From NCBI RefSeq assembly GCF_041821085.1, contig NZ_JBGUAZ010000011.1, forward strand, positions 1 through 64,000: a stretch of 64,000 nucleotides of DNA. Direction: 5' to 3'. Position 1 is the first letter of the stretch. Each line of letters starts with the position of its first letter. The DNA is from Natrinema sp. HArc-T2. Lineage in GTDB: Archaea > Halobacteriota > Halobacteria > Halobacteriales > Natrialbaceae. Below, one piece after another: positions 22,555 through 25,815 of the stretch. The notes under the pieces are model-generated. The model did no database searches. It was not told the origin of the DNA and was given only the letters and a program-made list of their open reading frames with translations. A program made the position numbers and the translations under genes.

Positions 22555-23598
22555 TCACCTAATCAGATGGATCGCATCAGGTGGAATTGTCGCCTGAATG
22601 CTGGAACCGACTTCAAGCGGGACTTGGCCGAAACCCGGTGGACGAATCGTCGTCGTAAGCGTGATCGGTGCGTCGTCAAGAGCGACTTCCACTCGGTACT
22701 CGTCACCCTCGTTTAACCACCGGTCGATCGTTCCCGAAACTGTGTTCTCACAATGGAGGTCATCATCCCTGTTCGGTGTGTGCACCTGTACACGCGATGG
22801 GTGGATGCAGAGCGTAACACCTGTCCCAGGAGTGGCTGCTGTTGTCGCCTGAAGACGAACGTTGCCAACTCGAAGGAAAGTCATGTCTTCGCGCTGTTCA
22901 ACGACGGTTGCGTCGAACAGATTCTCGTTGCCGGTGAATCTCGCGACGAACCGCGTTGTGGGACGGTTGATAACGGCCATTGGAGATCCAACCTGCTCGA
23001 TTGTACCGTCGCGAAAGATAGCTGTTCGGTCACCAAGCGCCGTCGCCGTTCGCTGATCATGCGTGACGTAGATAACTGGAATCTCGAGCGAACTGAAGAG
23101 CGTATGGAGTTCCCTGCGAAGTCGACGCCGAATCGGCGCATCGAGACTTGCTAACGGCTCGTCAAGTAGCAGGAGGTCAGGATCTGCTGCCAACGTGCGT
23201 GCAAGCGCGACGCGTTGCTGTTCGCCACCCGACAGCGTCGGCGGTCGGCGGTCTAGTACGTCCGTGATCTCGAGCAGCGATGCGAACTTTGCGATTCGGT
23301 CCCTGTCAGTTGCGGCATAGCCGATGTTCTCTCGGGCAGTCATGTGCGGGAACAGAGCTCCGTCTTGAAACACGAGGCCAGTCCGGCGCTCTTGAAGGGG
23401 ACACCCATTGAGACGGTCGCTGTTCAGCGAGATGGCCCCCTCATCTGGGTCGACGATGCCCGCGATTAGCGACAGCAGTGTCGTCTTGCCACTGCCTGAC
23501 GGGCCGAGAATCGAGAGGACTTCGTCGTCGACAGTGAGATCGACTGGGCCAAAGTCGAAGGTGTCGTACCTCTTGGTGAGGGAGGTCACTTCGAGCAT
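22555..23598 (-). CDS. Tungstate/molybdate-type ABC transporter ATP-binding protein
   Basis: A 347-residue ATPase with Walker A GPSGSGKTT, signature LSGGEQQRVALAR, Walker B LLLLDEPLASLD and an H-loop in YVTHDQRT. A C-terminal regulatory region of about 120 residues of the TOBE type (RLQATTAATPGTGVTLCIHPS, then GTIDRWLNEGDEYRVEVAL) follows. This is the ModC/WtpC architecture. The gene is third in an operon binding protein-permease-ATPase; it starts 3 bases after the permease stop. Molybdate, tungstate or sulfate cannot be told apart by the ATPase alone, but the Tfx neighbour supports molybdate or tungstate. Confidence 0.87.
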   Translation of the reverse strand: MLEVTSLTKRYDTFDFGPVDLTVDDEVLSILGPSGSGKTTLLSLIAGIVDPDEGAISLNSDRLNGCPLQERRTGLVFQDGALFPHMTARENIGYAATDRDRIAKFASLLEITDVLDRRPPTLSGGEQQRVALARTLAADPDLLLLDEPLASLDAPIRRRLRRELHTLFSSLEIPVIYVTHDQRTATALGDRTAIFRDGTIEQVGSPMAVINRPTTRFVARFTGNENLFDATVVEQREDMTFLRVGNVRLQATTAATPGTGVTLCIHPSRVQVHTPNRDDDLHCENTVSGTIDRWLNEGDEYRVEVALDDAPITLTTTIRPPGFGQVPLEVGSSIQATIPPDAIHLIR

Positions 23599-23601
23599 CG
23601 A

Positions 23602-24411
23602 TTACTCCAATGGGTTCGTCCCGAGCACGTTTAGCACGACAAGCGTTGCGACGGCGATTCCGACCAGAATGACGGCCACGGGGAAGGCGTTCTCCAATCC
23701 GAGCGTTGTAAACGAGACCCAGATCTGCACGGGCATCGTCCGTGGGTAGTATGCGAGCATGATCGTCGCTCCGAACTCACCGATCGCACGAGCAAACGCG
23801 AGCGTAATGCCGGCGAGAATTCCCGGCCAGGCGAGCGGCAGCGTAACCCGGCGAAACGTCGTCAGCCGACTCTTTCCGAGCGACTGGGAGGCATACTCGA
23901 GACTGCGGTCGACGCTCTCGAACGCTGCTTTCGCCGTGACGACGACGAACGGCGAAGCGACGAACGTCTGTGCCAGCACGATTCCGGCGACTGATCGGGT
24001 CAGTTGGAGTCCGTTTGCTGCTGCCAGTCCCCCGATGAACGTGTTCGGGCCGACGACCGTGAGCAACACCATGCCGCTGACGATCGGCGGGAGTACGAGC
24101 GGCAGTACGACGACAGCGGTCACGATCGTTTTCACTCGTCCGTCAACGCGGGCAAGCCAGTAAGCGAGTGGGAGTCCAAACAGCGACGCGATAGTCGCAC
24201 TCGTGACCGATGCGGTAAGTGATGTGGTCGCAGCTGAGACGACAGCAGGTCTGGTCAGTCGCTGGATGACGACCCCTGGTGGCTGACTGAGAGCGAGTGC
24301 GAGGAGCGGAACGAGATAGTAACAGAGCAGCACCGCTCCAAGGAGGAACGCGACTGTCAGCCAGTCGAACCGTCCGACGGTGGCATTAGTTCGTGACTTC
24401 GCTGGGAGCAT
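23602..24411 (-). CDS. Tungstate/molybdate-type ABC transporter permease
   Basis: A 269-residue protein with six hydrophobic segments and the EAA-loop motif (EYASQSLGKSRLTTFRRVTLPLAWPGILAG) typical of ModB/WtpB/CysT permeases. It couples to the ATPase through this loop. The start overlaps the end of the binding-protein gene by 26 bases, which supports one transcript. The short N-terminus (MLPAKSRTNAT) makes this start acceptable; a start several codons downstream would also be possible. Confidence 0.88.
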   Translation of the reverse strand: MLPAKSRTNATVGRFDWLTVAFLLGAVLLCYYLVPLLALALSQPPGVVIQRLTRPAVVSAATTSLTASVTSATIASLFGLPLAYWLARVDGRVKTIVTAVVVLPLVLPPIVSGMVLLTVVGPNTFIGGLAAANGLQLTRSVAGIVLAQTFVASPFVVVTAKAAFESVDRSLEYASQSLGKSRLTTFRRVTLPLAWPGILAGITLAFARAIGEFGATIMLAYYPRTMPVQIWVSFTTLGLENAFPVAVILVGIAVATLVVLNVLGTNPLE

Positions 24412-25306
24412 TGCCTGTGAACCGTGGATAATCGTCCGGAACGACGAACCCGAACTCGTTCAGATACGCTCCTGTTATATGTTCCGTGAACACATCGATA
24501 GCGGCGGGCGATTGGTGGCGAATCGTTGAACCATAGCTGATGAGTCCGCCGCTGACGACCTTCCCGCTCGGGAGTTCGTAGGTCGCCGATTCGTAAGTGT
24601 CTGTATAGCTTGGATCACTGAGGTCGATTTCCGCTGGGAGGTCGATGTAGTCGTATCCGCGCTCGACAGCCATGTTTCGATACGCGATGGCAGCGTCGAC
24701 CGACCCAGTTTCGAACTGACTAATGAGCTGTGTTTCAGGATATATCTGTTCTGTCCGTGGAATCGCGTCTCGGAGATTCGTGTCCGTCCCGTAGTGTGCA
24801 GTCGCGAGCTCGAGCATGAACAGCGCTCGATATCCGAGTGGATCGAGCTCCGGGTCGGTCCTCCCGATCGTAACGTCTCCGCTCAAGAGCGGTTGATACC
24901 AATCCTCGGCTCCTGCGTCGGCGAGTTGTTGGCCACCTTCCGTATTGGGGTTGTACGCGATGACGATCGAATTGGTCGCAAATTCGGCAAACCAGTCCGG
25001 CTGAAGTGGTGAGTCAAAGAGGGCGATATCCGCAACTGAGACGATATCGGGATCTTTCTGTCCCGCTGCGATGAGCCGAGCGACCTCGGCGGAGCCGTGT
25101 ACTTCTATCTGAACCGTTGCATCTACGCTCGATCGCACTCCGTTTTCGAGTGCATTATTCAAGCTTCCCGCAGCGAGCATCGAGACGGTCAGCGACTGTC
25201 CGTCGTTCCCTTGGAGTGTACCGGAACAGCCAGCAACACCCGAGAGTGCGACGGCGGTAGCCGAGAGTACTGAACGTCGGCGAGTCCGCAGTCCGTCACC
25301 AGCCAT
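24386..25306 (-). CDS. Tungstate/molybdate-binding lipoprotein (WtpA/ModA-like)
   Basis: A 306-residue protein with a twin-arginine signal (RRRSVLS at 9-15) and lipobox VAGC (Cys27). The mature part is a type II binding fold of the WtpA/ModA class: MLAAGSLNNALE, VHGSAEVARLIAAGQKDPDI, then IVIAYNP and GRTDPELDPLGYRALFMLEL. The Ser and Asp/Glu pattern at GS, GSAE and DPELDPLGYR resembles oxyanion-binding residues of archaeal WtpA. It is the first gene of the transporter operon and is divergent from the Tfx regulator, sharing a promoter region of only 59 bases. Confidence 0.88.
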   Translation of the reverse strand: MAGDGLRTRRRSVLSATAVALSGVAGCSGTLQGNDGQSLTVSMLAAGSLNNALENGVRSSVDATVQIEVHGSAEVARLIAAGQKDPDIVSVADIALFDSPLQPDWFAEFATNSIVIAYNPNTEGGQQLADAGAEDWYQPLLSGDVTIGRTDPELDPLGYRALFMLELATAHYGTDTNLRDAIPRTEQIYPETQLISQFETGSVDAAIAYRNMAVERGYDYIDLPAEIDLSDPSYTDTYESATYELPSGKVVSGGLISYGSTIRHQSPAAIDVFTEHITGAYLNEFGFVVPDDYPRFTGNAPSEVTN

Positions 25307-25311
25307 ATCGC

Positions 25312-25357
25312 AACAATTAGTGTTTCATCAATAAGCTTATCTCAAACACTCTTGTTT
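25312..25357. promoter_or_regulatory. Symmetric bidirectional promoter with flanking inverted operator
   Basis: A perfect 10-base palindrome ataagcttat (25331-25340) lies midway between the two divergent start codons, about 30 bases from each. That is the distance expected of a TATA box for leaderless transcripts both ways. It is flanked symmetrically by aacaattagtgttt (25312-25325) and its near inverse aaacactcttgttt (25344-25357), centres 32 bases apart. I infer binding by the Tfx protein encoded to the right, or by a molybdate-responsive factor. Confidence 0.65.
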
Positions 25358-25365
25358 GACTTTAT

Positions 25366-25815
25366 ATGGTGGCGACCACGGAGACAATATTGACGGACCG
25401 ACAGGTCGAGGTACTCAGGCTCCGTGAGAACGGTCAGACACAGCAGGAAGTGGCCGACACGTTGGGAACGACCGCCTCGAACGTGAGTGCTGTCGAACGG
25501 GCTGCAGAACAGAACATCGAGAAAGCACGCCGAACGCTCGAACTTGCCCGAACACTACGCGCGCCGGTGCAATTTACTGTTCCAGCCGGAACGTCGTTCG
25601 ATGACCTCGTCACTCAGGTGTACGCCCGCGGCGACGAAGCTGGTATCAAGATCGCATACTGTCGACCAGAGCTCTACACGCATCTCTACGGGATTCTCGA
25701 AGCGGTCACCGACGCCAATCAACTCAACGAAACGATCACGCTCGGTCTGACGGAAGATGGAGAGGTGAAGGTGTATACAGATGAAGTAGGTTCCGTTGAA
25801 GGACACAGATTATAG
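25366..25815 (+). CDS. Tfx-family DNA-binding protein
   Basis: A 149-residue protein with an N-terminal helix-turn-helix of the LuxR/sigma-like type (ILTDRQVEVLRLRENGQTQQ, EVADTLGTTASNVSAVERAA) and the C-terminal Tfx domain (about 70-140, YTHLYGILEAV). The founding Tfx of Methanothermobacter binds near the molybdenum formylmethanofuran dehydrogenase operon. Haloarchaeal relatives beside Wtp-type transporters are therefore good candidates for molybdate- or tungstate-dependent regulation. It is divergent from the transporter operon across the symmetric promoter. Its transcript is probably leaderless. The repeat at 25816 starts right after its stop codon. Confidence 0.88.
   Translation: MVATTETILTDRQVEVLRLRENGQTQQEVADTLGTTASNVSAVERAAEQNIEKARRTLELARTLRAPVQFTVPAGTSFDDLVTQVYARGDEAGIKIAYCRPELYTHLYGILEAVTDANQLNETITLGLTEDGEVKVYTDEVGSVEGHRL

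Follow-up and report, generated by a model that had tools for sequence, protein, structure and literature searches.

The 59-bp region between a tfx gene and a divergently oriented wtpA-like gene of Natrinema sp. HArc-T2 harbors an 18-bp inverted repeat, which, judged by comparison with related sequences, is very probably a haloarchaeal Tfx operator. This repeat, on the tfx side of the shared TATA box, together with one additional half-site further upstream, is best read as a putative binding unit. In the account that we favor with reasonable, though not high, confidence, this unit governs an autoregulated divergent region, where a Tfx dimer on the 18-mer would jointly repress tfx and the genes of a wtpABC-like transporter. 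Tfx proteins rank among the common haloarchaeal regulators, being present in 330 of the 391 genomes searched, while a literature search for a haloarchaeal Tfx operator or regulon found none, and only two characterized members of the family are known to us. The region offers a concrete operator along with a candidate binder, and genome comparison adds a second, genome-wide one in front of moaA and the genes of aldehyde ferredoxin oxidoreductase (AOR). If this holds true, control of molybdenum and tungsten (Mo/W) metabolism in haloarchaea falls under the little-characterized Tfx family.

The features discussed below are given by their positions in the window, i.e. the whole analyzed stretch of 64,000 nucleotides:

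22555..23598, minus strand: ABC ATPase, WtpC/ModC-like (PF00005 and PF08402 over cut-off; NF040840 238 bits, cut-off 440)
23602..24411, minus strand: WtpB/ModB-like permease (PF00528 64.3 bits; best NCBIfam model TIGR01581, 203.4, cut-off 210.3)
24386..25306, minus strand: WtpA-like oxyanion-binding protein (PF13531 67.6 bits; TIGR03730 131.7 bits, cut-off 242.75)
25312..25316, no strand: the word aacaa of the sequence-only reading, not conserved beyond close relatives
25322..25327, plus strand: half-site A on the transporter side, auxiliary, GTTTCA against a consensus of GTTTGA, at exactly 14 nt from half-site B
25331..25341, no strand: BRE/TATA segment common to both genes, ATAAGCTTATC, with TTAT on both strands
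25342..25359, no strand: candidate operator TCAAACA-CTCT-TGTTTGA with perfect 7-bp arms, conserved before tfx orthologs
25366..25815, plus strand: tfx, Tfx-family DNA-binding regulator of 149 aa (TIGR00721 97.1 bits, cut-off 60.25; PF14601 55.6 bits, cut-off 27)

The two genes diverge from the ATG of the wtpA-like gene at 25306 on the minus strand and the ATG of tfx at 25366 on the plus strand, which enclose positions 25307-25365. The palindromic box ATAAGCTTAT is located at 25331-25340, with its center 29.5 and 30.5 nt away from the two start codons, as the sequence-only reading had described it. The common core promoter proposed there is likewise supported: TTWT is the haloarchaeal TATA motif (PMC4983044), and the TTAT of the shared box lies about 27 nt from both ATGs, a spacing that fits leaderless starts in each direction, so that both divergent genes would give rise to leaderless transcripts from the shared box. 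The commonest form of the box among relatives is, however, the non-palindromic AAAAGCTTATC, and the most fitting interpretation is therefore a BRE/TATA element that works in both directions, not an operator palindrome.

The transporter genes are downstream of this promoter on the minus strand. Their earlier designation as a tungstate/molybdate transporter holds with respect to an oxyanion ABC importer but not with respect to the substrate, since the scores remain under the curated cut-offs. The products are WtpABC-like only, given that the equivalog models TIGR03730, NF040839 (202.6 against a cut-off of 340) and NF040840 are not reached, and because the cut-offs for WtpA, WtpB and WtpC as well as for the archaeal Mo-porter are missed, tungstate and molybdate are not distinguishable as substrates. 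The wtpA-like and wtpB-like frames overlap by 26 nt (24386-24411), and translation of the permease may begin further inside its frame.

Previously, the region had been described as near-perfectly symmetric about the TATA-like box. The four words named as flanking half-sites are all in the sequence (aacaa at 25312-25316, gtgttt at 25320-25325, aaacac at 25344-25349 and ttgtt at 25352-25356), but just 12 of 27 pairs are complementary about the TATA center, compared with a mean of 7.4 in Markov shuffles (P 0.04). The best 20-pair symmetry about any center has a P of 0.14 in shuffles, and a perfect 10-bp palindrome arises in 5% of shuffled 59-mers. Moreover, the words are not coaxial with the box: the gtgttt/aaacac pair is centered at 25334.5 and the aacaa/ttgtt pair at 25334, while the box is centered at 25335.5.

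The strongest symmetry of the region resides in the 18-mer, whose arms match at seven of seven positions with a spacer of 4 around a center at 25350.5. It adjoins the TATA box, ends 6 nt before the tfx ATG and comprises half-site B (25342-25347) and half-site C (25354-25359), separated by 12 bp from center to center. Among shuffled sequences, this symmetry has a P of 0.003 for that very geometry and of 0.06 once every perfect 7-bp inverted repeat spaced by 0-20 is counted. Symmetry in a single sequence is modest evidence; conservation decides. A further 43 tfx-ortholog loci, some of which represent the same site in two collections, were examined; they span many haloarchaeal families and genera including Natrinema, Haloterrigena, Halorubrum, Halorientalis, Halostella and Natribaculum. 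In nearly all of them the 18-mer directly follows a CTTATC-like TATA element, at a distance of 5-9 nt from the start of tfx and, in most cases, of 35-39 nt from that of wtpA. Conservation was scored in a non-redundant set of 28 promoters less than 85% alike. Of these, 4 preserve aacaa and 4 the 10-bp palindrome, while half-sites A, B and C, which the other three words overlap, retain at least five of six bases in 17, 27 and 25 promoters, respectively. Half-sites B and C carry 1.69 and 1.55 bits per base versus 0.24-0.34 in the flanks, values for B and C that are inflated by the alignment of promoter rows on the best motif match, with the distance to the start codon left free. Positions -9, -4 and -3, which were unused in row placement, are as conserved as the half-sites. 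The corresponding values are 1.17 bits per base for the BRE/TATA segment and 1.05 for half-site A. At locus L028 of genome G127 both arms are altered while their symmetry is kept (TCGAAC...ATTCGA; TCGAACGGTTCCATTCGA). A left partner of half-site A, which would amount to a second dimer site on the wtpA side, was seen by eye in close relatives only.

The exact pattern TCAAAC-N6-GTTTGA occurs once in the 3.73-Mb host genome, namely at 25342-25359, and 30 times in the 391 haloarchaeal genomes, with 16 copies just before a tfx ortholog and 14 scattered over 13 genomes, none of the latter with tfx within the 3 kb examined. Genomes having a tfx ortholog contain zero exact copies away from tfx. The 14 scattered copies are taken as chance matches, in keeping with the 11 obtained for the reversed control pattern; one of them (L062) has a short, weak WtpA-like match about 0.7 kb away. 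As to a wider TCAAAC regulon in the host genome, none of seven further two-mismatch sites was accepted: several fall within ORFs, and no TATA box resembling that at 25331-25341 adjoins any of them. The wtpA orthologs without neighboring tfx reach 6-9 of 12 positions in their best match, with two exceptions. In genome G037, the wtpA promoter (L106) keeps the site at 11 of 12 positions (TCAAACACATCTGTTTGC) within a complete TATA-operator unit, and no ortholog of the local tfx was detected in this genome; recent loss of tfx or another binder are candidate readings. In G127, wtpA (L111) keeps it at 10 of 12 positions (TCAAAGATATCTGTTTGT) with tfx (L028) 1.2 Mb off, and each of the two genes retains its own diverged operator, a split that provides a natural experiment on trans action. 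Retention of the site at wtpA without an adjacent tfx in both genomes argues that it serves wtpA as well.

The AlphaFold model of the tfx product (pLDDT 82, pTM 0.53), whose profile scores place it in the Tfx family, resembles EnfR (TON_1525 of Thermococcus onnurineus; 8hno, 8hnp) with a Foldseek E of 4e-10 and a VIA Z of 12.3 over 135 residues at 4.3 A rmsd to 8hno. This match outranks those to sigma region 4, which span the HTH alone, and the model displays the EnfR fold of an HTH plus C-terminal domain. In the orthologs, the stretch YCRPELY (residues 98-104; 25657-25677) is near-invariant and absent from the aligned part of EnfR, and represents a candidate ligand place; we know of no effector-binding domain in EnfR.

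EnfR represses as a dimer, and its minimal site of 18 bp overlies a TATA-like box; its HTHs are about 36 A apart, and it protects -44 to +3, i.e. about 47 bp (PMC10570040). The present operator is of the same type in that an 18-bp inverted repeat is located over or beside a TATA-like box near the start codon (PMC10570040), and the half-sites, 12 bp apart, recall the recognition units of the EnfR dimer at a distance of about one helical turn. On the other hand, the half-sites TCAAAC...GTTTGA differ in sequence from AATCT...ACATT of EnfR (AATCTTTTTGTTTACATT), two of its three contact arginines are changed in the local Tfx (R35 to A37 and R44 to A46, with R43 kept as R45), and the known EnfR target is a CODH/hydrogenase cluster and not an oxyanion transporter (PMC10570040). 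The earlier suggestion of Tfx as the obvious binder gains support from the EnfR-like fold, from the fact that the element follows tfx orthologs and from most wtpA promoters without tfx being also without the element; hence, as judged from sequence and model, Tfx very probably binds the 18-mer. The Methanothermobacter Tfx (MTH0916; 1nr3) has its binding site at a molybdenum-enzyme operon and a tungstate-responsive gene (PMC3087415). It shares with the local Tfx the family, the Mo/W context and binding, predicted for the local Tfx, to the promoter region beside its own gene. It differs in that it adjoins fmdECB and reportedly binds downstream of that promoter, which is not a divergent transporter operator. 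This Mo/W link suggests, but does not show, a Mo/W signal in the present case.

In the favored mechanism of joint repression, one Tfx monomer would occupy each 6-bp half-site at a distance of 12 bp, as in the EnfR dimer, and the dimer on its site, if its footprint is as large as that of EnfR, would cover the BRE/TATA shared by both predicted leaderless transcripts. A 47-bp footprint centered at 25350.5 would span 25327-25374, including the whole shared box. Given this coverage, one dimer might be enough to shut off the two genes, as the sequence-only reading had proposed; this is plausible by analogy with EnfR, and joint repression is hence preferred. Half-site A would strengthen the hold on the transporter side, and scarcity of molybdate or tungstate would lead to release of Tfx and thereby to more uptake. 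The sequences show the element with its conservation, fixed spacing, linkage to tfx and retention at wtpA without tfx, as well as the family and predicted fold of Tfx; from these we infer Tfx binding, repression, leaderless starts and the molybdate/tungstate signal, with repression as the more probable direction of regulation at wtpA. Four observations speak against joint repression by Tfx, namely that the location of the operator, upstream of the BRE of the transporter, is equally compatible with activation, that the site is unlike that of EnfR with two of three contact arginines replaced, that EnfR is not known to possess an effector-binding domain, and that G037 retains the site despite lacking a detected tfx ortholog.

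The first of these observations leads to a push-pull arrangement, in which the same Tfx dimer would repress tfx but, bound immediately upstream of the transporter's BRE, act there as an activator. Counted from the wtpA start, the 18-mer covers -36 to -53, where activators commonly sit in archaeal promoters; counted from the tfx start, it covers -7 to -24, where repressors commonly sit. In addition, the putative operators of core Tfx described below end about 53-58 nt before the starts of moaA and AOR, a distance at which they would be less likely to occlude TATA. Because the 18-mer is directly upstream of the transporter's BRE, push-pull is a serious rival; yet the shared TATA would lie within a footprint of 36-47 bp as seen with EnfR, and the partly conserved half-site A downstream of the transporter TATA has the position of a repressor site, which leaves this arrangement as the distinctly less probable one of the two. 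Far less credence is given to an operator centered on the palindromic TATA box with the arms aacaa-gtgttt and aaacac-ttgtt: although every named word is in the window and three of them coincide in part with the conserved half-sites A, B and C, the arms are off the box axis, and the rarely kept aacaa and palindrome, with AAAAGCTTATC as the usual form of the latter, argue against it. The TATA-centered palindrome was dropped as an operator on symmetry statistics and conservation. Equally improbable is that another regulator, e.g. a ModE-like one, binds the 18-mer with tfx being merely adjacent. The host does encode a single ModE-like match, under the family cut-off and on another contig (G000:C1:398779), and G037 has a ModE-like match besides its site without tfx ortholog. 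However, the site is tied to tfx orthologs, G127 has both sites and no ModE match, and tfx-less genomes with ModE beside wtpA carry a different box, CGTTATGTC or GACATAACG.

The latter arrangement was encountered in five Tfx-less genomes (G161, G145, G044, G183 and G073), in which wtpA diverges from a ModE-like gene and has CGTTATGTC- or GACATAACG-like boxes upstream (L110, L116, L119, L120 and L121). Like the tfx-wtpA pairs, they feature a regulator divergent to the same wtpA and a short control region; unlike them, they combine a ModE-like winged-helix regulator with a CGTTATGTC-type box. ModE in place of Tfx at the wtpA promoter would accordingly represent a regulator swap at one promoter. 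The host region itself does not resemble a ModE-regulated promoter, since the neighboring regulator is Tfx and positions 25307-25365 contain no CGTTAT-type box.

A second element became apparent in several wtpA promoters without local tfx, which show the same geometry in other letters, such as GTAACG-N6-GGTTTC-N14-GTAACC at L112 and GTAACC-N6-GGTTGA-N14-TCAACC at L102. The exact form GTAACC-N6-GGTTAC is present in 118 of the 391 genomes, with about a dozen matches for the control. In 32 loci it is upstream of moaA in 13 cases, of AOR in 8 and of genes for WtpA- or TupA-like proteins in 2, the rest being other or unassigned, with locus L169 counted under both moaA and AOR. The family was checked by profile for the TupA-like protein and for a single moaA and a single AOR, and the others were assigned by eye from the shared N-terminal sequence; no family matched the first 110 residues of the WtpA-like protein of L158. 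The element ends 53-58 nt before the start codon of most moaA and AOR genes; it is found at 1501-1518 of loci L127, L128, L154, L156, L159, L160, L166, L167, L171 and L174-L180. Like the local operator, it features the 6-N6-6 geometry, a connection to Mo/W genes and, in some wtpA promoters, a third half-site at N14, while it differs in half-site, in its upstream position and in the associated core Tfx clade.

The association of this element with core Tfx, a second Tfx clade paralogous to the local one, 115 of 322 genomes with the protein versus 3 of 69 without it (Fisher 1e-8), persists upon stratification by family (odds ratio 8, p 1e-4) and suggests, but does not prove, core Tfx as its binder. 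ModE is an unlikely binder of GTAACC because G003, G012 and G125 carry the element without a ModE match, at wtpA in all three and also before moaA in two, although a sub-threshold ModE is possible there. In a comparison including four core sequences, local and core Tfx form separate clades. Their recognition helices read SRANVSxxES or ET in core and ASNVSAxERA or DSNVSAxERA in local Tfx, thus differing at the EnfR contact positions, and in four genomes no TCAAAC operator was found in the core Tfx gene's own promoter.

We lean, by a little, towards two Tfx clades as haloarchaeal Mo/W regulators, which would share one geometry but use different half-site letters, with ModE as a replacement in some Tfx-less lineages. 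Local Tfx would then read TCAAAC/GTTTGA at its own wtp-like transporter, and core Tfx GTAACC/GGTTAC before moaA, AOR, WtpA- and TupA-like genes, while the helix contacts would have changed in step, the core clade keeping R35 and the local clade R43 of EnfR. The host genome contains one-mismatch copies of the GTAACC element 56 nt before AOR (L183; G000:C1:86407-86424) and 53 nt before moaA (L186; G000:C5:236241-236258).
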